Origin: Fibrobacter sp.
GTDB lineage: Bacteria > Fibrobacterota > Fibrobacteria > Fibrobacterales > Fibrobacteraceae
Direction of reading: 5' to 3'
Length of the DNA stretch: 64,000 nt
NCBI GenBank assembly: GCA_017475045.1
Contig: JAFVGH010000068.1
Span: 62,001-126,000 of the forward strand
A model generated the notes under the pieces. The model saw only the letters and a program-made list of their open reading frames with translations, was not told the DNA's origin and did not search any database. Position numbers and translations under genes: made by a program. Positions 1,428-25,659 of the stretch are shown here, piece by piece; position 1 is the first letter of the stretch; the number at the start of each line of letters is the position of its first letter.

Positions 1428-4400
1428 TCACCACCCAATAGCACAACAAATCTTAGAAACATCCCCAGTGACATGGAGAATGTCGTTAACAGCAGGAGGC
1501 GGTTCAATGCTGTTGTTAGATGTATTATCGCCACCACTTACTGGAGTTCCATCATTCACTTGAACAGAACAACCACCGCCTCCATAAGGACAATTAAACT
1601 TAATAGATTTACATGATCCAACCGCTGTAACCTTATAATCCTTTCCATCTGCAAGAGACTCATGTGTGAGCTCATTTTTATTACAATCCTTTGTTAGTGA
1701 CAAATTCGTAGGTGGATCCGGAGCCGAATATGTCACGGAGAACGCGCAAGGAGTTTCAGCAGAACCCGCAGAATTCCTTAACGCAAGTGTATAATTATAC
1801 GTTCCCGGTTCACTTTCCCCAATAAACGTTATATCACCACCATAGTAGGTATCTGATCTGTCATTTGTCCCTGATGCAGAAATCGTATAAATACATCCTC
1901 CAGGCACGGAACAATTAGTAACAGACGGGGACACCTTTATTACTTTGCCCGTTTTGGCAGTAGAAGGAGCGGAACAGGAAGGTACCGTCGGCTTACTAAC
2001 CGGTTCACAAGGATTTGCATTCGCTCCAGAAACCGTGGCTTTTCGCCAATTATTACTAGGATTTGTATTAGTAGGGAGAGGAATTTTCATGTAATAACCG
2101 CCATCAATTTTTTCAATGCCACTATATGTAGAAGCACATCCATTGGCGTCCCCACAATAACTTCCCGCATCTTCGCCATTAATAAGAACATTTCCGTTGC
2201 TATTGACATTTACGGTCGTAATCTCGGTTCCATATACACATATCACAGAACTATTCGTTCCCTCAAGGCCCACATTTGTTCCTGTAACAAGGGAATTGCA
2301 AGCCTCAGTACCGCACGTACAACCACATTTTGCCCCTGCAGCCGCAAACGTCGCACTACACCTTTTTGTTGTTGTCCCCGAGGAATTCCTCAAACTGACA
2401 ACATATATTGCCGTATCACCGACTGTAGTCGTGTGGCTATTCGTAAAGGATGGTAAAGCTCCTGTTGTATTTGTGTAACCAGTACTTTCTGTTCCAGAAG
2501 CGCCCCAACCTTCAATCTTGTAGTAACAGTAGCTACCACCTTCATCGCAGCCGGATACATTTTGTGGTATGATGGTGACATTGTTCGATTCACTAATTGT
2601 TGCCCTCAAATTTGTCGGGCAATCAAATGCAGGTTTCGCCTTTTTCACCTTCATTTTCCAATTACAGGTAAACGGACCGGCAGAGACCCCACTAACACTC
2701 AATGTAGTACTATATGAATACTCTTTGTCTCCCGTTCCACTCGGTGAAATTGTCACATCGCTATTGAATTTTGACGGATTGTTGTAACAATCGTTTTCCT
2801 TATTTGCATTGCTTCCTGAAATCGTGCATTCTGTATACGTACCATTGCCATAGTTATATGCCCATTCTGCCTTAAACGTGAATGAACCACCCTCTTCCAT
2901 TTCTATTTCTTGATTATTTGTAATGGCGGTACCATTGACTTTACACACTAGCGGGTTTTTCACCTTGTATTCTTTATTGCTGCAAAGTGTCGCTCCATCA
3001 GCGGTCAAACTATAAGTATAATCATCACTTACCGTAGCAGGAGCGTTTATAGCATCCATGTCCGGGCAGGCGTCACTAGAGCAGTCTTTGTTCCAAGAAC
3101 CCACGTTCGCTATAGAAACAGTTCGGCTAACAGTCTTTGTAAGATTTTCATCTCCATTCATCTGAATCCCCCATGTAGTCGATTTTAGGGGATATGTCGA
3201 GATATTTGGACACGTCGCCGTCAAGACATCGCTCAGCGATTGTACAGTTAAGGTTGCCGTACAGAATGTATTCCCACCATAAGTAATGGAATATGTGTAC
3301 GTATCCGCTGTAGTTGGGGCAGTCACACTATAGTGATTGACATTTCCACTATTGTAACGGTCAATCGTCACAGATTGGGTTCCACCACCACCACTGAGGG
3401 TTCCCGAAATCTGATTGTTAGAACGTTCGTCCCATTTACTACTTTCCCCAACACCAGTTATATCTAACGTTGTGCTGTTACCCGTATAAACCGTTGACGG
3501 ATTAAACTCGCACTCTCCTGTCACCACACCTTCTGTCGACTCCGCTACCGAGAACTCCTGTTCGCAGCTTGCAAACGGATATTCACTGTTGGTACTTTCC
3601 AAAACCAGTTTGTATGTCTTGTTCAGCGTCAACAGATGTTGATCATCGTTGTTATAGGCATTGACCGGTGACGTATTAGACACATCCCCGCTTACCTCAG
3701 AATTACTTTTCACAGTAGCAACAAGAGTTGTACCATCCATAAGCTTTATCGTGTACCCGCACTTGGGCTCTTGTGCCGTAGCCGTCGGGCACCCGGTAAT
3801 ACTGTAAGTCATTGCAGGCAGTCCTTGACCCGGTCCTATCGTTTGCTTATCAGGAGGAATACTACAAGACGTGGTTATCCTAGAAACTGTGGTTTTGGTC
3901 TCGCAAGGCGAGCCTTCGGCAGGTTTGGCAGGCGTGCTTCTATCTGTCAAAGTTAATGTAAACTTATAGTCCACAGATTCGTTATCCCCCGTTATATAGG
4001 TGTACGGGGTATGACTCAACAGGTTCTGGAATTCCCACGTTTGAACACTATTCCCGGTAAGGGTGCATTCACCGGCAACACAATTCTTTTGGTTGTCCAT
4101 GGTGGTCAAGTCGTTGTCAGCTCCACCGATGTTCACATTGGTTACGTCAAGAGTTCCCGCCACACTGCCATTGTTCACCGTGGCTGTAACAGTCCATTTG
4201 TCAGTAGCAGAATTGTAGGTTGCATTGCACGCTTTAAGGCTCAAGGCATACGGACACCTACTGTAAACTGAGGTAACGTTAATTCCCGAACCCGCATCGA
4301 ATTTTACATAGGCGCCAGCAACGTGTTCGGGGTCAAAACCGTCCACATTGGAAATATCGGCCACAGGAACGGAAATTTCATTTCCGTTACCAACGGACAC

Positions 4401-7400
4401 AGAAGCTGTGTAAGCCTGGCTATATATAGCCTCGCTGCCATAAATATAGCCATCAGTTAAATTTTTACTGAACAGGTAAACAGAAACTTCAGCCGCCTCT
4501 GCTCCGGTATTGTCCAGCTTCACTACCAGCTCCGCTTCTCGGAAGTTTGCCGCGTCGCCCGAAGTATTCTGGGCGAAATAGGTTCCCTCGGCACCATCTA
4601 TGGTCTTGGCAAAAGGCACATGCTCGGTACAAGGCGTAAAGGCCCCGACCCAGAACGGTCCACAATGGGCTGCAATCGCAGGCACCTCGCTGGTGGCCCA
4701 TGGAGCACTTTCGCCAGAGATGGTACACGTAGACCCACTTGCACCAGCCCGCGCCACATTAGTGCTACCAACGCCATGGGGCCCAACTAAATCATCTCCG
4801 GTGAATTTATAACCATCAGAAGGACAAATGTTGTACCCAGATGAACCTTGGGCGTATCCATTACAGCCCGCGTCACTTCCGTTGTAATAGAATTCTGGTT
4901 CACAAGTGTTTCCGTTTTCTCCAAACCACTTAGAGAAACCAACCCAAGGCGTTACAAATTGGTTTTTGGGAACGATGCCCCCAGCGTATTTCGCCTTGAA
5001 GGAACAGGTTATGGTGGGGTAAGAGTCCCAACATTGCGAAACGTAATCATCGCTTTTCCAACCGATACCGTAAAGCTTGAAATTCTGATCGGAGAGGCGG
5101 AAACCGACATACTCGTTACTCTGGCTTGCAAGATTCTGAATCCCATCAAAGTCATTCTGGCTCAAGTCAAAAGAGGTCATCTGGTATGCCGAACTGTATG
5201 CACTGGTATAGGCGTAAATATCGAGAACATCGTTTACTCCGAGAGCATCGTTCGCGTTGGCCTTGCGGATTGTCGCTGCCACCAGAATGATGTCGCCCTG
5301 GTTTACAGACGCGGTCCCAATCTGCTTCTCCTTGCAGGGAGAATCTCCGTTCAGGCAAAGCCTCGCCTTCAAGTCGCCATTCTTGTCGCTAAAGATGTTA
5401 AGCATCAGGTAACTGGAGCCATCTGACCTAGAACGGAGAATAAAGCCGGACTGTTTGACAGTAGACTTAGAAATGCCGCCGCTAGAAATGCCCTCCCTGG
5501 GGACCTGGAACTGCGCTTTCAGGGTTCCATAGGCGCCTGCTTGAGCCCGGCTCATGATTGTCACGGAAGGCTTTTCGCTTTCTTTCTTTATACGAGTGGA
5601 TTTGGCAACGAGAGAGATACGGCCATCGCCATTGAATTCGATGTCACTACTAGAACCACTCAGCAGTTTCCACTTGGAAGTAGTATGTGTGCCGGCGGCG
5701 TCTATGCAGTATTCCGCATCGCTGCCGCTAGCGCCACACAGTATAGCAGACCTGTTGGTATAATAGCCCTCATTGCTGCGGAACTCGTCAAAGAAACAGT
5801 GCTTGTCCGATTCTTCAAAGTGGGCATCGACAACATCGGCCCCTGTTATGGACATTACGTACGTATTGGTTGGGCTTGGAATTTTCGATGCCGGACAATC
5901 AGGACCGCTTTCGCACATCCAGTAATTGAAATTGCTCGGCGGGGTTAATTTAGTGGCATCAGTAGGATTGGGGAACGAAAGGGTCACCCGGTCACCATAA
6001 TAGACCTGAACCTGGCAATTCGCAGCATTCTTTGTCGCATCATTGAAATCGCTATACTTGCAATTGTTGGTGCTGACATCGCTATAGACACCCTCACTCT
6101 GGCGTTCAACGTGAATGTTGATGGGGCGACTGTCGCTAATACCACTATTTTCGCCCTTGTCCGTTACGTACCTAACAGCAAAAGTAAACGGTCTAGCCTT
6201 GAGAGAGGCATAAAGATCCACTTCGGAAATCTCGGCGGAAGGCGGGTCGTTGGCCTTGTTCGGCCCCGGTATGACCACCTCGCACCCGCTACTGAACGCT
6301 CCCTGAACTTCTTCCAGCTGTATCGAGCCCGTGTTCTTACAAGTCCAAGGACCATTGGCCTGACCTCCGCACATTTGACCATTGGCCGTGACCCATTGCG
6401 CACTTATATCGCAATCGGGGGCAGAAACCTTGGCGCACTTGGCCTTGTCGGCATCGGTTGTACCATCGCCATTAGCGGTACACCACTCTTCAAGAGACTT
6501 TCTGTTGACGGTTATGCTGTTGCCGACCATGATGGTTTCGATATAGGGCGCCCCTACATCACAGCCGTCTGCACTTAAAATCTGGAAAACAAGCTGATTT
6601 GTCGCGTTTTTATTTTTTACCGTAAAAATGTTATGAAGAGCCTGGTTTGAACTGATTTTAAAGAAACAGGGACTGCCAGCGTTGCACGCGCCATCCGTGG
6701 TACCAACAACCCCAACCTCCCACTGGTCAACATCGTAACTGGGGAAGTCAACCTTAACCGTGTATTGTTCCGCCACCCCTGTTGTTGTCGGAATGCGCAA
6801 CTGAACGTTGTAGGTAGGATCTGTCTTTTTCAGTTCTTTTTGGCCTTCGGCAAAAGAAACTCTGGCTACGCCATCATCGGCGCCAGTAACAACCACATAG
6901 AAGGGAATAGACGATTCAGTGCCATCAACAGATCCCGAGGCATAACAGGTGTAATTCCCCGACGCAAGTTTATGCTGTGCAGTGGGGACCAGCTTGCCAC
7001 TAGTAGGAATGGCCCCACCACAACTCACGGACAAGTTTTGCACAGTGGAACTGTTGTTCCGAGGATTCAGAGGAATTACGTTGTAGTACTGATCCAAGTT
7101 ACCTTGAGGATTGTTGCTCAGGTAGATTATTCTCGGGAGAACAATAAACGTCGGCGCTGCAGCTTGACCGTTTGCGACAAGGTTGTCGATGCTTTCGTTG
7201 CTAGCGTATTGGGTTTCTAGATTGATGGAAAGTTGTGGTGCAACCGCTATGTAGTAATCGTCTTGAGCACCACCAGCGGCAGCCCCCATTCCGCCCCCTG
7301 CAGCACTGGGGTTTGCCAGAAGCGTGTAGTCGGGGTTTTCTTCAATGAAGCCTGCGTCAGCCAAGGCCTGAAGGACAGTTCCATTATACTCAAGATTGAC

Positions 7401-9461
7401 GTTGCCATCTGCGACGGTTGCCTGAGAACCGTTCTGCATAATGACAGAACCGTTCACTTTCAAGTTTGATAACGTCGTCGCGGTAGTACCGCCTGCATAA
7501 ACGAAGTAATTATAAAACCATCCATCGCCACGCGGACCACCGGAAAACAGTTTCGATGCTCCTCCAGGGAGATAAAGTAATATGGAAGAAGCCGACGTTG
7601 TCGGGGGTATAAAGAAATCACTAGTACTCCGCCCTGTGAAGTAGAAAATGAATTTACCATTCAAGATCGGATTTCCATTTTTGGTAATGGTCTGGTCCAT
7701 GTTGCTTCCCGAACCGCCAGCAAAAGTGAGAACTAGGTAGTTATTATACAGATCATCGCTCTGGGACAATTTTTCATAACATTTTTGAACATCTTCCCAG
7801 AAAGACACTTCAAGCTTACTGTGGCCATCAATGATATAACCATTAGACGTGCTTACATTCTTATCAAAGTTTGCCAAATTGTCCGAACCAGAAAGATTAT
7901 AACATGCCTGGTTTGATTTATTTTGCAGCCACTGATCCTGGTTATTCGCCATATTCTTTAGAAGAATTGCCTGGGGTACGGTATTTGTACCATCGTCATT
8001 ATGCTTAATAAGATGGCCCAGACTGTTCATTCTGTCTATGTTGGACCAATAGTTGCCGCCAATATCTTTCCATATATTTCTCGTACGGTCCCAAACAGGG
8101 AGCGCTGTTGAAGTCTTGTTATGGTCGTCATCTACAAGAGAAAAACCAAGCAGCCTCTTCTGTTTACCCGATTCTGTATCGTTTCCGAGTTCCGTTTGCG
8201 TGGTGTATTGCATGTATATGCCATAATTCGGATCATAAGGGGTCCAATGACAATTAGTCCAAGTCCATCCATCCCAATCGCATTCTTTCTTTTGCTGTTT
8301 TAGAACAGAATAATAATTTGTCATATTATGACGATATATGTACCCACCAACGGACGATTTTCTATTGCCTCCGTCATCATTACAACCCGACCCACAATGG
8401 GCCTCGATTATGTCCGGAGCGTACAAATTCAGACCAACCTTAAAGCGTCCTGTTCCATTGCCTTCGAAATTATACGATCCGTTTTCCGTGAAAACAAGAT
8501 GTCCATTGACGCACAATGATGAAGTGTTCCCATATACAGTACACGTCACACCGTCTTTATCTACAGCCTCTTTGTTTCCATTACGATCCAATTGTCCATT
8601 TGCCGTTAAATTGCCTTCCGTGTATATACCGCAATCGTTCGCGATATTCCCGTGAACATATAGATCTCCTCCTATGTAGATAGAGCCTTGTCCACCAGAA
8701 CAACTAAATGTTCCCCCAACATAGGCCACATTGTTACCAGACCCAATACTGTTATTACCATTGAAACTGACATTTCCCCTGACATAAAGATCGGCTCCGG
8801 CCAAGCCCGAGGCTCCGCCAGCGGGACCTGCCAAGGTCACATTTCCGGTCACAATCATGTGCTCCGTCACCGTCGGCTGGTTACCGCTAAAATTACCATT
8901 TACAATTGCAGACTGGAATGTGGGGCTATTGGTCAAGTTTCCCAAATCTCCCTGGAACGCCTTGTTAAAGTTTATGGTAGTGGAAGTACTAGGTATTTTC
9001 ACCCTATACAAACCATCAACGTTCACTATGGCCACTTCGCGGTGGCTTGCTCCACCATCCCTTGCGATTCCTTCGGAAACAAGCTTTAGCTTATACGTAG
9101 ATTTTTCCGTACTCACACCTGTGAGCCATACATGGAAATTTTGCCCTGCACGCACCAAGGGAGCCAACCGATTGTCCAGACTTACCGCACTATTCCCGTT
9201 AGTCTTGTATTGATGAATCAATGCACCCACGTCGTTTGCATGGTAAGTCATCCAGCTGATTGCGCTTTCGACACCCGCCACAGAGCTCTGGTACGCCTCA
9301 CGTTCCAGCATACGGCTAGCACTGGAGTGCCCCTCGCTGGTAATCCACTTGTAGGTGGCGGTAGCGGCGATGGTTGCCACCAGCATAAAGAGGAGGACTG
9401 TAACGAGCGAAACACCCGCTTTTTTCATTACTCGTTTCTCATTTCTCATTCCAAATTTCAT
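1428..9461 (-). CDS. Giant PilX-like minor pilin with adhesin-like ectodomain (2,677 aa)
   Basis: The N-terminus (MKKAG followed by VSLVTVLLFMLVATIAATAT) is a class III prepilin signal with the hydrophobic helix at residues 17-36. Cleavage would follow Gly16, and position +5 is not Glu, as in PilX and GspK. PilX proteins are about 200 aa; this one is over ten times longer. Residues about 170-330 are short Gly/Asn repeats (LYVRGNVSF, IYIGGDLYVHGN) suggesting a beta-helix. About 1230-1470 looks like a concanavalin/LamG-type sandwich. About 1860-2677 holds at least five Cys-rich Ig-like units of 90-110 aa. The start at 9461 has AGGAGG five bases upstream; a second ATG at 9428 (MKKAG) is possible. 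It is last in a four-gene minor-pilin operon, nine bases after its neighbour. I infer a pilus-tip adhesin taking the place of PilX plus PilY1. Ligand unknown. Confidence 0.8.
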   Translation of the reverse strand: MKFGMRNEKRVMKKAGVSLVTVLLFMLVATIAATATYKWITSEGHSSASRMLEREAYQSSVAGVESAISWMTYHANDVGALIHQYKTNGNSAVSLDNRLAPLVRAGQNFHVWLTGVSTEKSTYKLKLVSEGIARDGGASHREVAIVNVDGLYRVKIPSTSTTINFNKAFQGDLGNLTNSPTFQSAIVNGNFSGNQPTVTEHMIVTGNVTLAGPAGGASGLAGADLYVRGNVSFNGNNSIGSGNNVAYVGGTFSCSGGQGSIYIGGDLYVHGNIANDCGIYTEGNLTANGQLDRNGNKEAVDKDGVTCTVYGNTSSLCVNGHLVFTENGSYNFEGNGTGRFKVGLNLYAPDIIEAHCGSGCNDDGGNRKSSVGGYIYRHNMTNYYSVLKQQKKECDWDGWTWTNCHWTPYDPNYGIYMQYTTQTELGNDTESGKQKRLLGFSLVDDDHNKTSTALPVWDRTRNIWKDIGGNYWSNIDRMNSLGHLIKHNDDGTNTVPQAILLKNMANNQDQWLQNKSNQACYNLSGSDNLANFDKNVSTSNGYIIDGHSKLEVSFWEDVQKCYEKLSQSDDLYNNYLVLTFAGGSGSNMDQTITKNGNPILNGKFIFYFTGRSTSDFFIPPTTSASSILLYLPGGASKLFSGGPRGDGWFYNYFVYAGGTTATTLSNLKVNGSVIMQNGSQATVADGNVNLEYNGTVLQALADAGFIEENPDYTLLANPSAAGGGMGAAAGGAQDDYYIAVAPQLSINLETQYASNESIDNLVANGQAAAPTFIVLPRIIYLSNNPQGNLDQYYNVIPLNPRNNSSTVQNLSVSCGGAIPTSGKLVPTAQHKLASGNYTCYASGSVDGTESSIPFYVVVTGADDGVARVSFAEGQKELKKTDPTYNVQLRIPTTTGVAEQYTVKVDFPSYDVDQWEVGVVGTTDGACNAGSPCFFKISSNQALHNIFTVKNKNATNQLVFQILSADGCDVGAPYIETIMVGNSITVNRKSLEEWCTANGDGTTDADKAKCAKVSAPDCDISAQWVTANGQMCGGQANGPWTCKNTGSIQLEEVQGAFSSGCEVVIPGPNKANDPPSAEISEVDLYASLKARPFTFAVRYVTDKGENSGISDSRPINIHVERQSEGVYSDVSTNNCKYSDFNDATKNAANCQVQVYYGDRVTLSFPNPTDATKLTPPSNFNYWMCESGPDCPASKIPSPTNTYVMSITGADVVDAHFEESDKHCFFDEFRSNEGYYTNRSAILCGASGSDAEYCIDAAGTHTTSKWKLLSGSSSDIEFNGDGRISLVAKSTRIKKESEKPSVTIMSRAQAGAYGTLKAQFQVPREGISSGGISKSTVKQSGFILRSRSDGSSYLMLNIFSDKNGDLKARLCLNGDSPCKEKQIGTASVNQGDIILVAATIRKANANDALGVNDVLDIYAYTSAYSSAYQMTSFDLSQNDFDGIQNLASQSNEYVGFRLSDQNFKLYGIGWKSDDYVSQCWDSYPTITCSFKAKYAGGIVPKNQFVTPWVGFSKWFGENGNTCEPEFYYNGSDAGCNGYAQGSSGYNICPSDGYKFTGDDLVGPHGVGSTNVARAGASGSTCTISGESAPWATSEVPAIAAHCGPFWVGAFTPCTEHVPFAKTIDGAEGTYFAQNTSGDAANFREAELVVKLDNTGAEAAEVSVYLFSKNLTDGYIYGSEAIYSQAYTASVSVGNGNEISVPVADISNVDGFDPEHVAGAYVKFDAGSGINVTSVYSRCPYALSLKACNATYNSATDKWTVTATVNNGSVAGTLDVTNVNIGGADNDLTTMDNQKNCVAGECTLTGNSVQTWEFQNLLSHTPYTYITGDNESVDYKFTLTLTDRSTPAKPAEGSPCETKTTVSRITTSCSIPPDKQTIGPGQGLPAMTYSITGCPTATAQEPKCGYTIKLMDGTTLVATVKSNSEVSGDVSNTSPVNAYNNDDQHLLTLNKTYKLVLESTNSEYPFASCEQEFSVAESTEGVVTGECEFNPSTVYTGNSTTLDITGVGESSKWDERSNNQISGTLSGGGGTQSVTIDRYNSGNVNHYSVTAPTTADTYTYSITYGGNTFCTATLTVQSLSDVLTATCPNISTYPLKSTTWGIQMNGDENLTKTVSRTVSIANVGSWNKDCSSDACPDMDAINAPATVSDDYTYSLTADGATLCSNKEYKVKNPLVCKVNGTAITNNQEIEMEEGGSFTFKAEWAYNYGNGTYTECTISGSNANKENDCYNNPSKFNSDVTISPSGTGDKEYSYSTTLSVSGVSAGPFTCNWKMKVKKAKPAFDCPTNLRATISESNNVTIIPQNVSGCDEGGSYCYYKIEGWGASGTESTGYTNTTGALPSFTNSHTTTVGDTAIYVVSLRNSSGTTTKRCSATFAAAGAKCGCTCGTEACNSLVTGTNVGLEGTNSSVICVYGTEITTVNVNSNGNVLINGEDAGSYCGDANGCASTYSGIEKIDGGYYMKIPLPTNTNPSNNWRKATVSGANANPCEPVSKPTVPSCSAPSTAKTGKVIKVSPSVTNCSVPGGCIYTISASGTNDRSDTYYGGDITFIGESEPGTYNYTLALRNSAGSAETPCAFSVTYSAPDPPTNLSLTKDCNKNELTHESLADGKDYKVTAVGSCKSIKFNCPYGGGGCSVQVNDGTPVSGGDNTSNNSIEPPPAVNDILHVTGDVSKICCAIGW

Positions 9462-21643: not shown

Positions 21644-22744
21644 CTACATCCAGCCGCGTTCCGAAGTTCCGGTAATACCGCGAATCTTCAGTTCGAAGTC
21701 ATCCCTGTTGGTAGCCGCATTCAGGGCCACATCCAGAGAAATCTTGTCCTGGTTGTAGAGTTCCAGCAAGGACTGGTCAAAGGTTTGGCTATGGTACTGC
21801 ATGTGTCCTTCGGCGATAGCCGATTCCACCATGGCAAGCTTATCCTTGTCCTTGATGTATTCCTTGATAGCGGCCGTATTCACCAGGATTTCTGCAGCAG
21901 GCACACGTCCCGTGCCATCCTTGGTAGGCAACAGACGGAGAGAAATAATACCGGCCAAAACTTCGCCCAACAACAGACGAATTTCGTCGTGCTGGTGCGG
22001 CGGGTACATGGAAAGCACACGCTGGATTGTTTCGGTGGCGTTAGTGGTATGGATAGTGGCAAACACCATGTGGCCCGTATCAGCAGCCGTAAGCGCAATG
22101 GCCATGGTCTCCAAGTCACGAATTTCGCCCACCAACAGCACGTCCGGGTCCTGACGGAGAGCGGCGCGCAAGGCGTTAGCATAAGACAAGGTGTCCACCC
22201 CAAGTTCACGCTGGGAAATAATAGCCTTGTTGTCGTTGTACAGGTATTCGATAGGGTCTTCTACCGTAATAATGTTGACCGACTCGTTCTGGTTAATGTA
22301 GTCCAGCATAGAAGCCAAAGTCGTAGACTTACCGGAACCGGTTGTACCCGTCACCAAGATAAGACCGCGGCGGGTCAAAGCCAAATCCTTGACCACCTCG
22401 GGAAGCCCCAGTTCTTCGAAAGGAGGAATCTTTGCCTTGATGTGACGGATTACCACAGCAATGGTTCCACGCTGACGGAACACGTTCACACGGAAACGGC
22501 CCATATCGCGGGCACCCACAGCAAAGTCACATTCCTTGTTGGTCTCGAAACGCTGTTTCTGGTCGCGATTCATGATATCATCCAAGAAGGAATCCATCAT
22601 GGCAGGGTCAATACGGGTATCAAAAATCTTTACCAGAGATCCGTTGATGCGGAAAATAGGAGGCGTCCCTACGCGAATGTGCAAGTCAGAAGCCTTGCTT
22701 TTTACCATTTCGCGAAGAAGTTGCTCAATCCTCAATTCAGCCAT
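21644..22744 (-). CDS. pilT: Type IV pilus retraction ATPase PilT
   Basis: Hexameric cytoplasmic ATPase that pulls pilin subunits back into the membrane and powers twitching and DNA uptake. Seen: SDLHIRVGTPPIFRINGSL near the N-terminus, Walker A GTTGSGKST at 133-141, Asp box ITVEDPIEY, Walker B DVLLVGEIRD at 201-210, His box HMVFATIHTTNATETIQRVL and a PilT-like C-terminus. 366 aa, standard size. It starts three bases after the acidic scaffold gene and leads into the secretin gene. PilB and PilC are not in the window. Confidence 0.93.
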   Translation of the reverse strand: MAELRIEQLLREMVKSKASDLHIRVGTPPIFRINGSLVKIFDTRIDPAMMDSFLDDIMNRDQKQRFETNKECDFAVGARDMGRFRVNVFRQRGTIAVVIRHIKAKIPPFEELGLPEVVKDLALTRRGLILVTGTTGSGKSTTLASMLDYINQNESVNIITVEDPIEYLYNDNKAIISQRELGVDTLSYANALRAALRQDPDVLLVGEIRDLETMAIALTAADTGHMVFATIHTTNATETIQRVLSMYPPHQHDEIRLLLGEVLAGIISLRLLPTKDGTGRVPAAEILVNTAAIKEYIKDKDKLAMVESAIAEGHMQYHSQTFDQSLLELYNQDKISLDVALNAATNRDDFELKIRGITGTSERGWM

Positions 22745-22747
22745 CTA

Positions 22748-25402
22748 CTAGCCTCCAAACTTATCGTTGTATATTTTGCGCACCTGTTCCAGGCGTTCCT
22801 GGATTTCGGCGTTGTCGGGTTCCTTCTTGGCCAGATCCTGGTAGATCTCCAGAGCCTTATCAGACAGGCCCTGTTCCAGATATATTTCAGCCAAGGTACG
22901 GGTATTCAGGCTTTCGTCTAAGCCAGCATTCACATTGTCCAAAGTTGCCGAGGGGTCCTTGATAAGGCCCGCAGAAACTTCGTCATCAGAATCACCGGAC
23001 ATCAAGAAATCAACGCCCTTGTTAGACGGCTTTTCTTCAGGAAGATCGTCGTCATCGCTTTCAAAGAGGCCCTTGAAGGCGCCAGAAACTTCGGACTCCA
23101 AATTATCAAAATCCGTCTTCTGGGCAGGAGCTTCTGCCTTCACGTCTTCTACCGGCGTTTCTGCGACAGGTTCTTCTTTTTCTTCTCCGAACAAACTATC
23201 AAAGGACTTGTCTAAGCCAGCTTCCAAAGATTCAGACGGGATATTCTTTTCTTCGACAGCGGCACCTGTATTTTCTTCGTCGCTGCCAAACAGGCTGTCG
23301 AAAGCACCGCCCATTTCCTTTTCGAAATCACCAGCCGTTTTCGAGAAGGATTCCGCATCCACAGCAGGTTCTTCTGCAGGAGCTTTTTCTTCGGCAGGTT
23401 CAACAGCCGCAGCGGCAGGACTTTCGCCAAGAGCCAAATCGTCTTGGGGCAAATCATCATCTTCGCCGAAGATAGAACTGAAGGCGTTATCTACGCTGCT
23501 TTCCACTTCCTTGTTTTCTTCGGCAGGCATTTCCAAATCTGCAACCGGTTCTTCAACAGGCTTCTCTTCCGATTCAGTAGCGGGTTCAGCAGCAGGAGCA
23601 GCAGTCCACTCAGCAGCAGACTCTTCAGCCGGCAGCTCAAGGTCAGCGGCAGGTTCAACAGCCGGTTCCACCAGATCCAGCGTTTCTTCTGCAGGGGCGT
23701 CGCCTGTCAGATTCATCGAGGCATCAGCAGACTTCTGGAACAAGCCAGATTCTTCGGGCAGGTCATCTTCTGCTCCGAATATGGAATCGATAGCTCCACC
23801 AACACTGTCAGAAGAGTCTTCGGCAGCTGTCGGGGCGTCGGCTGCAGGGCTTTCCTCTTCTGGTGCAGCGCCCACCTCTGCCGACTTCTGGAACGGAGAC
23901 CAGTCGCTGGCATCCACAGGCGTATCATCCAGGTTCAAGCTGTCATCACCTGCAAGAGTCAGTTCCTCTGCCGCCGGTTCAGCCTGTTCGCTTGTAGTCG
24001 TTTCAGCGGACTTCTGGAAGGCAGCAGGTTCTTCGGGCAATTCGTCTTCACCGAAAATGGAACCGAAGGCGTCGTCCACGCTCTGAGGTTTGTCCTCTTC
24101 TGCAGGAGCAGACTCTTGCACTGCAGGTTCAACTTTAGCAGGAGCATCAACCTCTGCAGACTTCTGGAAGACAGCCGGTTCTTCGGGCAGTTCGTCTTCA
24201 CCGAAAATGGAACCGAAAGCGTCGTCCACGCTCTGAGGTTTGTCCTCTTCTGCCGAAGCGGAACCGCTCTCAGCAGACTTCTGGAAGGCTGCGGGTTCTT
24301 CAGGAAGTTCATCCTCGCCGAAAATAGAACCGAAGGCGTCGTCCACACTCTGGGGCTTATCCTCTTCTGCAGGAGCGCTGAACACCTTATCGGCGTTCTC
24401 TGCCGCAGCAGGTTCGTCGTCGATGCCGGCGGACAGGTTCAGGCTAGAGAAAGGCGATGCCGGAGCAGCCGGCTCTTCGGGTTCCAAGTCGTCATCCACA
24501 CCGAAGAAGCTGGACATAGCAGAGTTAACATCATTGCCGGAAATGTCGTCATCAGCAGGGAATACTTCAGGAGCAGACGGTTCATCAGCACCGATAGATT
24601 CCATTGCAGAATCCAAGGAAGCCTGCAAACTATCCATAGCGGCTTCATCACCGGCATCAGAATCAGGAATCAAGGCAGAAAGGGCTGCAAACGGGTCATC
24701 GGAACCTTCCACCTCGGTAGCCAGGGATTCAAACGCCGTAGTTTCAGGAGCCCCAGATGTTTCTTCAGCGGAAACAGCCCCGCCATCATTTGCAGCGGGC
24801 TCCTCATTCACATACTCAAAGCCACTTCCAAACTTGGGGCCTTTCTCTTCGGGAGCACCGGCCTCATCAGGAGATTTTTCAAAGAAGGGAGCCTCGTCAC
24901 CACCCATAGAGAGGTCCATAGACGAACCGGCATCCGCCGTTTCCAGTCCAGGCATGGACAAATCCATGTCAGAGAACTCTGCTCCGGCAGTTGCGGCTGC
25001 AGCGGCCGCCACCACTACGTCATACTCATCCTTCCAGAACTGGTCCAGAGGATCCATATCGTGGACTTTGCGGTAGCACTGGTTGCGCTCGTTAATCTTT
25101 TCCACCTTATCATAGGCATCGCCCATTCGCTTTTGGGCAGACAGGCAGAAGGGGTCTATCTTAAGAACCTTGGCGCATTCTTCAATACACGCCTCAAAAT
25201 CCCCTTTTTCAAACAAGATCTTCGTGCGGACAAGATGAGCAGCCAGGTCCCCAGGATACAGGGTCAAGCCACCATCAATTCGCTCCAGGGAGGTGTCCAG
25301 GTCGCCGGATTCCCTCTCAAAATCGGCAAGCCAGGCAAAGGCCTGTGTATTCACCTTCTTCTTACCGATGGACTTTTTTAAAGATTCCAGCGTTACCGTC
25401 AT
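22748..25402 (-). CDS. Acidic TPR scaffold protein of the pilus operon, FimV-like
   Basis: 884 aa. The N-terminus has TPR-like helices (residues 1-125: WLADFERESGDLDTSLERID, IDPFCLSAQKRMGDAYDKVE). The C-terminus has another TPR (LAEIYLEQGLSDKALEIYQD). In between is a long, very acidic, Pro/Ala-rich region with about nine copies of a motif like DDAFGSIFGEDELPEE and at least six of FQKSAE. No signal peptide or membrane helix is visible, so it is probably cytoplasmic. FimV/TspA proteins share the acidic middle and C-terminal TPR and act in pilus assembly; similarity here is in design, not sequence. ATG at 25402 overlaps the Trm112-like stop (ATGA) and has GAGG upstream. Confidence 0.7.
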   Translation of the reverse strand: MTVTLESLKKSIGKKKVNTQAFAWLADFERESGDLDTSLERIDGGLTLYPGDLAAHLVRTKILFEKGDFEACIEECAKVLKIDPFCLSAQKRMGDAYDKVEKINERNQCYRKVHDMDPLDQFWKDEYDVVVAAAAAATAGAEFSDMDLSMPGLETADAGSSMDLSMGGDEAPFFEKSPDEAGAPEEKGPKFGSGFEYVNEEPAANDGGAVSAEETSGAPETTAFESLATEVEGSDDPFAALSALIPDSDAGDEAAMDSLQASLDSAMESIGADEPSAPEVFPADDDISGNDVNSAMSSFFGVDDDLEPEEPAAPASPFSSLNLSAGIDDEPAAAENADKVFSAPAEEDKPQSVDDAFGSIFGEDELPEEPAAFQKSAESGSASAEEDKPQSVDDAFGSIFGEDELPEEPAVFQKSAEVDAPAKVEPAVQESAPAEEDKPQSVDDAFGSIFGEDELPEEPAAFQKSAETTTSEQAEPAAEELTLAGDDSLNLDDTPVDASDWSPFQKSAEVGAAPEEESPAADAPTAAEDSSDSVGGAIDSIFGAEDDLPEESGLFQKSADASMNLTGDAPAEETLDLVEPAVEPAADLELPAEESAAEWTAAPAAEPATESEEKPVEEPVADLEMPAEENKEVESSVDNAFSSIFGEDDDLPQDDLALGESPAAAAVEPAEEKAPAEEPAVDAESFSKTAGDFEKEMGGAFDSLFGSDEENTGAAVEEKNIPSESLEAGLDKSFDSLFGEEKEEPVAETPVEDVKAEAPAQKTDFDNLESEVSGAFKGLFESDDDDLPEEKPSNKGVDFLMSGDSDDEVSAGLIKDPSATLDNVNAGLDESLNTRTLAEIYLEQGLSDKALEIYQDLAKKEPDNAEIQERLEQVRKIYNDKFGG
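24013..24380. repeat. Three near-identical coding repeats of about 100 bases in the acidic scaffold gene
   Basis: Units at about 24013-24112, 24161-24260 and 24281-24380 start TTCTGGAAG and end in TCCTCTTCTGC. Each encodes KPQSVDDAFGSIFGEDELPE followed by EPA.FQKSAE. Spacers between them differ. More worn copies lie at about 23440-23500 and 23730-23800. Confidence 0.8.
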
Positions 25403-25659
25403 TTTTCCTCCAATGAGAGCAAAATCGCTTCGTCAGCCAACAGAACCGGGATTCCTTCGCGAATGGGGTATACCCGTTTCCCGTCTATTGTGACCAGGGC
25501 CTCAGCCAAAGTCTCCGCCACTTTCTCACCGCCGGCATTCTTCACCGTTCCGGCAGCAATGGCTCCGTTCAATGTCGAAAGAAGGCCTTCTTCAGCCATC
25601 TTGAGTTTACCCCTTGTTTCGGGGCAACATAAAATATCTAAAAGGGACTGATCGAACAT
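25399..25659 (-). CDS. Trm112-like zinc-binding protein
   Basis: 86 aa. SLLDILCCPETRGKL near the start and KRVYPIREGIPVLLADEAI near the end are the two marks of the Trm112/UPF0434 (YcaR-like) family. In bacteria these small proteins are of uncertain role; in eukaryotes and archaea Trm112 activates methyltransferases. Only one CxxC-like site (CCPET) is present. The gene opens the pilus operon and overlaps the scaffold gene by four bases. The 25660-25736 gap in front must hold the promoter; AAAGGTG precedes the ATG. Confidence 0.8.
   Translation of the reverse strand: MFDQSLLDILCCPETRGKLKMAEEGLLSTLNGAIAAGTVKNAGGEKVAETLAEALVTIDGKRVYPIREGIPVLLADEAILLSLEEK

Follow-up and report, generated by a model that had tools for sequence, protein, structure and literature searches.

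The window, a stretch of 64,000 nucleotides from Fibrobacter sp., carries on its minus strand (22748..25402) the gene for a protein, here called SCAF, which we judge with a probability of roughly 0.6 to be a cytoplasmic scaffold that recruits the GTPase MglA by helices resembling the tail of MglB and couples it to type IV pili. SCAF has 884 aa from an ATG start and is built of an N-terminal TPR domain (aa 1-127; 25022..25402, minus strand), recognised by Pfam and homologous throughout the phylum, a disordered, acidic stretch in which a short motif occurs nine times, and a C-terminal TPR (aa 826-884; 22748..22927, minus strand; Pfam TPR_14, E 1.1e-10). Aspartate and glutamate make up 27% of the middle part (aa 128-830), lysine and arginine 4%. 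The chain has no transmembrane-like stretch (highest 19-residue hydropathy 1.0) and no signal-like start, and Pfam and NCBIfam returned TPR matches only, with no Roadblock/LC7, receiver, LysM or FimV match. AF2 modelled the N-terminal TPR domain alone as a TPR fold with a mean pLDDT of 84, for which Foldseek returned generic TPRs.

The gene lies among pilus genes. A PilT-family retraction ATPase (21644..22744, minus strand; TIGR01420, E 3.2e-138) is adjacent downstream, with 3 nt between the SCAF stop codon and the pilT ATG, followed by a PilQ-type secretin and, farther along, an ORF with a pilin N-methylation motif; the earlier label of a pilus operon thus holds for this genome, since PilT and then the secretin come directly downstream. 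Upstream, a Trm112-like small protein (25399..25659, minus strand; Pfam PF03966) overlaps the SCAF start and is the upstream neighbour in most loci of the family. A search for SCAF relatives gave matches in 79 of 80 genomes from the genus, 109 of 111 from the family and 163 of 167 from the phylum, those outside the family being weaker and chiefly to the TPR ends. PilT directly follows SCAF at 38 of 41 family loci, and the remaining three stop at a contig edge. At loci of other families it was inside the fetched stretch in 13 of 20, in several with one gene between, which we take to be PepP-like or biotin-carrier-like. PilT was not found within the fetched stretch at L135, L140 and L149; L130 and L145 belong to genomes without a true PilT, and L131 and L133 stop at a contig edge. 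According to PMC4704652, Fibrobacteres genomes contain gene sets for type IV pili in which PilT is present two or three times. The window also contains a 2677-aa ORF on the minus strand (1428-9461).

By regular expression, VxxAFxx[LI]FG followed by an acidic tail occurs exactly nine times in the middle of SCAF (copy starts at aa 292, 353, 392, 442, 534, 637, 697, 730 and 772), and 500 composition-preserving shuffles gave a mean of 0.02 copies and a maximum of 1. All copies lie on the minus strand: copy 1 (SGNDVNSAMSSFFGVDDDLEPE; 24476..24541), which of the nine is nearest to the form in other families, copy 2 (KPQSVDDAFGSIFGEDELPEEP; 24293..24358), copies 3 (24176..24241) and 4 (24026..24091) with the same residues as copy 2, copy 5 (SSDSVGGAIDSIFGAEDDLPEE; 23750..23815), copy 6 (VESSVDNAFSSIFGEDDDLPQD; 23441..23506), copy 7 (FEKEMGGAFDSLFGSDEENTGA; 23261..23326), copy 8 (LEAGLDKSFDSLFGEEKEEPVA; 23162..23227) and copy 9 (LESEVSGAFKGLFESDDDDLPE; 23036..23101). 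The hydrophobic residues at positions 0, 3, 4, 7 and 8 have the spacing of an amphipathic helix, and the hydrophobic moments of the copies fall at percentiles 74-96 within the SCAF region. Tandem Repeats Finder detected just one repeat (117-nt x 1.9, 24152-24377), so most copies are old. In a search of the same genome with the motif model, only the nine SCAF copies had E values below 1; the next match stood at 1.58. Thirty-five relatives outside the groups g2 and g4 gave 242 motif windows (220 distinct), with 2-10 per protein, and under a regular expression that restricts the permitted residues at positions 0, 3, 4 and 7-9, Phe stands at position 8 in 93% of these windows and Gly at position 9 in 86%. 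The earlier note had proposed about nine copies of a docking motif, interspersed with F-x-K-S-A, in an acidic disordered region between TPRs. The regular expression makes the count exactly nine against 0.02 in shuffles, this region also contains six motifs of the F/LxKSA type, and the setting is borne out by the Pfam TPRs at both ends, the acidic composition and the middle of the relative L057, which is mostly below pLDDT 50. Its idea of multivalent docking motifs in a TPR-flanked disordered scaffold gains support from the array, its selection and its conservation, and conservation in homologues, set beforehand as a test, was found across the phylum.

The SCAFs of other families carry repeats of the form [VI][ST]G[DEN]D[VI]xxRΦDxLF[GE], for example VTGDDIAGQIDSLFGEE (L133) and ISGEDIASRLNEMFED (L142). 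Copy 1 of the window (ISGNDVNSAMSSFFGVDDD) keeps much of this form together with its N-cap; most window copies no longer show [ST]G[DE]D at the N-cap or R-Φ-D at the centre, and judging from these residues the copies other than copy 1 look like derived forms.

The form found in other families resembles the C-terminal helix of MglB. In Myxococcus xanthus, this helix (residues 147-157) is reported to bind an MglA pocket made up of alpha5, beta2 and the beta2-beta3 loop (PMC6785124; PDB 6IZW), with contacts by Asp150-152, Asp154 and Phe157; it is further described as promoting nucleotide exchange, and its deletion as disturbing polarity (PMC6785124, PMC11016934). The M. xanthus MglB tail, which is this crystallographic MglA-binding helix, reads EISDDDIDNLF, and the MglB tails in the loci of 80 MglA relatives follow EI[ST]D[DE]DIDNLF[SGN]. 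We took 63 distinct motifs from 15 SCAFs belonging to other families, built a profile from them and ran it on the mgl loci of the phylum (1048 ORFs). Among 149,591 windows compared without gaps, the MglB tails of L267, L172, L171 and L266 ranked 1, 2, 3 and 6. In most of the phylum's other MglBs, including some from MglA-positive genomes, the tail is without the motif, and the Fibrobacteraceae MglBs (138-141 aa) end immediately behind the Roadblock domain and lack the tail.

A second test covered 1801 ORFs from loci of Myxococcota, Geobacter-like bacteria and Nitrospirota. Here the ungapped profile was weak: 64 of 79 MglBs had their best match in the last 25 aa, and several non-MglB ORFs scored higher. 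Only the profile shortened by one helical turn separated MglBs from the other ORFs of these loci. With four columns removed, a length picked after the tails had been seen, 67 MglBs were among the 79 best of the 1801 ORFs, at a median of 22.4 bits versus 11.0 for the best other ORF. Deletion of 0-3, 5 or 6 columns performed less well than deletion of four. Of 60 column-permuted profiles none gave a positive margin; they placed 18 MglBs on average and 63 at most. The A5 profile, run on seven named records and the source genome, recovered neither the window copies nor the MglB tails and is therefore silent on arrays outside the phylum; the MglB tail, searched against the PDB, gave no useful hit. 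Beyond the phylum, the ungapped profile scored highest on a Geomonas ORF downstream of mglA (L229:4219-5028) with VGDDVVDRLDQLHHE, which is without the LF end.

On the side of MglA, Leu64, Ile67 and Lys181 of the pocket are conserved wherever they could be read (L278 was left out at alpha5 and L272 at the loop). Position 185 is occupied by Met in 12 of 12 Fibrobacteraceae; of the MglAs from other families, 20 have Lys there and one (G151) has Arg. MglAs of other families (L169, L171, L172, L181, L182, L185, L267 and others) have at their C-terminus a basic [SG]F[FLIM]xx[LF]F[KNG], perhaps a competing or membrane-binding helix, and the MglB of L172 ends in a similar motif. The C-tails of Fibrobacteraceae MglAs (L166:3964-4911 and others) carry SPF, LFQK[SG]A and a terminal IELRPYxPKKK; LFQKSA and SPF also occur in SCAF, and PYxP in four of six g4/g2 SCAFs, a likeness of residues which suggests further short motifs common to the two proteins.

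In the source genome, mglA and mglB are adjacent and lie on a different contig from the SCAF operon, and the MglA matches that of M. xanthus over 190 residues (E 4e-75); a Group 1 MglA has been noted in the phylum (PMC4316618). Of 52 genomes searched for the MglA GTPase domain, 32 gave a match; no match came from the 12 g4 genomes, the g2 genome, the four g15 genomes, G166, G152 and G150. The Roadblock (MglB) family is missing from g2, g4 and g15. We scored 61 SCAFs for the motif, 35 of them with tested MglA status: at least two motifs were present in 24 of 26 MglA-positive genomes versus 1 of 9 MglA-negative ones (Fisher p 1.6e-5, uncorrected for kinship). The MglA-positive genomes G139 and G112 have one motif, or fewer good ones. 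As for the MglA-negative exception, G150, an MglA-tail-like ORF opens the contig that holds mglB, so its mglA was probably just cut off by an assembly gap; with G150 recounted as MglA-positive, the figures become 25 of 27 versus 0 of 8.

The SCAFs of the g2 and g4 genomes retain both TPR ends, and the array is replaced by a different repeat, PDLDALINEQL..DLTGDMDSLLAS; one original motif copy is retained in the g2 protein L069. PilT was kept in the five genomes tested and directly adjoins SCAF in this clade, and MglA is absent in 13 of 13 genomes (completeness 60-94%). The replacement repeat, PDLDALINEQLxSKVEDIPDLTGDMDSLLAS, occurs in 2-7 copies per protein (L062, L063, L065, L068 and L069). 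The PilT tree places the g2 and g4 genomes in one clade, so the MglA absences amount to about three independent losses. Two of these, g15 and G166, are also without a true PilT, and the g2/g4 event is the only one in which MglA was lost and PilT kept.

This event bears most on the proposal of the earlier note that the partner is PilT or another pilus ATPase. The motifs might dock PilT (or PilB), a hexameric ATPase that would gain avidity from a multivalent chain; the constancy of PilT beside SCAF within the family and at 13 of 20 loci elsewhere speaks for it, as do g15 and G166, which lack the motif together with true PilT. We nevertheless consider it unlikely and set it aside, mainly because g2 and g4 retain PilT next to SCAF and have lost the array along with MglA. 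It would also leave the match to MglB tails unexplained, and the AF2 model of a natural SCAF-PilT read-through chain (L057) showed no confident docking. In that model, the N-terminal TPR domain reached a pLDDT of about 93-98 (residues 21-120), the middle was mostly below 50, and two motif sites were helical at low confidence; no motif was confidently ordered or docked on PilT or on the TPR ends, which is weak evidence either way.

The same model bears on a second, equally unlikely reading, in which the motifs bind SCAF's own TPR ends or each other to form a cluster or condensate at the pole and the co-occurrence with MglA is indirect. TPRs often bind short peptides, and SCAF combines TPRs with many short amphipathic helices and an acidic disordered middle. 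However, the AF2 chain contained both TPR ends and docked no motif on them with confidence, g2 and g4 keep both ends in spite of losing the motif, and the resemblance to MglB tails would again go unexplained. The TPR core may have a role of its own that is independent of pili, because L145 (G163, g15), a SCAF of 239 aa from a genus without MglA and without true PilT, keeps both TPR ends and has no array.

Rather improbable, too, is a partner in the MglA module other than MglA, either MglB or an unknown GEF or GAP. Roadblock/MglB co-occurs with the motif as well, but G147, G153 and G136 gave no Roadblock hit and do have MglA, and G147 has nine motifs. MglB itself bears the motif in some genomes, and the M. 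xanthus tail binds MglA. We therefore rejected Roadblock/MglB as the partner, and MglA fits better.

Selection was assessed by dN/dS between the window gene and 10 close relatives. The values were 0.024 for the motif core, 0.057 for its acidic tail and 0.105 for the spacers, compared with 0.032 for the N-terminal TPR domain, 0.030 for the linker before the C-terminal TPR and 0.141 for the C-terminal TPR itself; these ratios are rough, since dS is large (0.8-1.8) and all pairs have the window gene in common, but their order is clear. The motif array is under purifying selection as strong as that on the folded N-terminal TPR. Between two of the three near-identical copies, those at aa 353 and 392, 13 of 16.5 synonymous sites differ and only 1 of 61.5 non-synonymous ones. 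It is thus very improbable that the repeats merely reflect slipped replication in an acidic disordered chain and lack a specific ligand, as the one 117-nt tandem duplication, the varying spacers and the differing copy number among relatives might suggest, given the constraint on the core relative to the spacers, the highly diverged synonymous sites of near-identical copies and the conservation of the array across the phylum. The linker (GVDFLMSGDSDDEV...; 22928..23017, minus strand), whose constraint equals that of the folded N-terminal TPR, recurs across several genera.

Recruitment of MglA by SCAF, the reading that we prefer, would work as follows. Each of the nine repeats would form a short amphipathic acidic helix of the MglB C-terminal type, and, going by this likeness, we infer that the helices bind MglA. 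Many such helices between the TPR ends could gather several MglA molecules, perhaps keeping them GTP-charged near the type IV pilus machine; the array would then have exchange activity on MglA, and SCAF would couple MglA to PilT or the pilus base. Since the MglB of Fibrobacteraceae no longer has the tail, SCAF may supply it in trans. A more far-reaching and doubtful version, which we put forward tentatively, is that in Fibrobacteraceae the exchange-promoting helix left MglB and was copied until a disordered pilus scaffold bore an array of nine sites. This array would serve as a multivalent, GEF-like antenna, which gathers MglA at the pilus, charges it there and so sets retraction. Motif and pocket would have co-evolved, the replacement of Lys185 by Met going together with that of R-Φ-D by A-F-x, and the clade without MglA would have rewired the scaffold with a different repeat.

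If recruitment of MglA is true, it links the MglA polarity switch concretely to type IV pili in a whole phylum of cellulose and chitin degraders, and a GTPase-binding helix has been multiplied in a disordered scaffold while vanishing from the regulator that bears it elsewhere. Pilus control in Fibrobacter would become testable with short peptides and point mutants. Among the papers listed by our searches of open-access literature on MglA and MglB, no title or abstract opening gives an account of such an MglA-docking scaffold.

Among known systems, the MglB helix of M. xanthus (PDB 6IZW; PMC6785124) is described there as a short acidic amphipathic helix after a disordered stretch, which the SCAF motif is predicted to be as well. 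Both have the core ΦDxLF[GS][ED] and the N-cap [ST]x[DE]D[IV], and both genomes encode an MglA-type GTPase; the putative SCAF helix differs in being one turn longer, in occurring nine times, in its TPR scaffold rather than a Roadblock protein and, in the window copies, in a mostly derived centre. RomR of M. xanthus is reported to have a long disordered region and an acidic helix able to replace the MglB helix in an assay (PMC6785124), but it has a receiver domain and one helix where SCAF has TPR ends and nine. FimV/HubP, as portrayed in PMC12918733, shares with our picture of SCAF an acidic cytoplasmic chain, a C-terminal TPR and roles at pilus and pole, whereas SCAF has no LysM, no transmembrane segment and no FimV-family match. 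SgmX is described as a TPR effector of MglA that recruits PilB (PMC7519303, PMC7668184, PMC11580455), and SgmX of M. xanthus and Bd2492 of Bdellovibrio as cytoplasmic TPR proteins acting with MglA on type IV pili or the pilus pole (PMC7519303, PMC7668184, PMC3983030). The description of SgmX gives 14 TPRs only, with MglA-GTP bound by the last of them, and includes no motif array; SCAF has TPRs only at its ends and a disordered middle, and its gene neighbour is PilT instead of the TamAB found beside SgmX and Bd2492. By analogy, SCAF would work like a blend of SgmX and the RomR/MglB helix while being a member of neither family.
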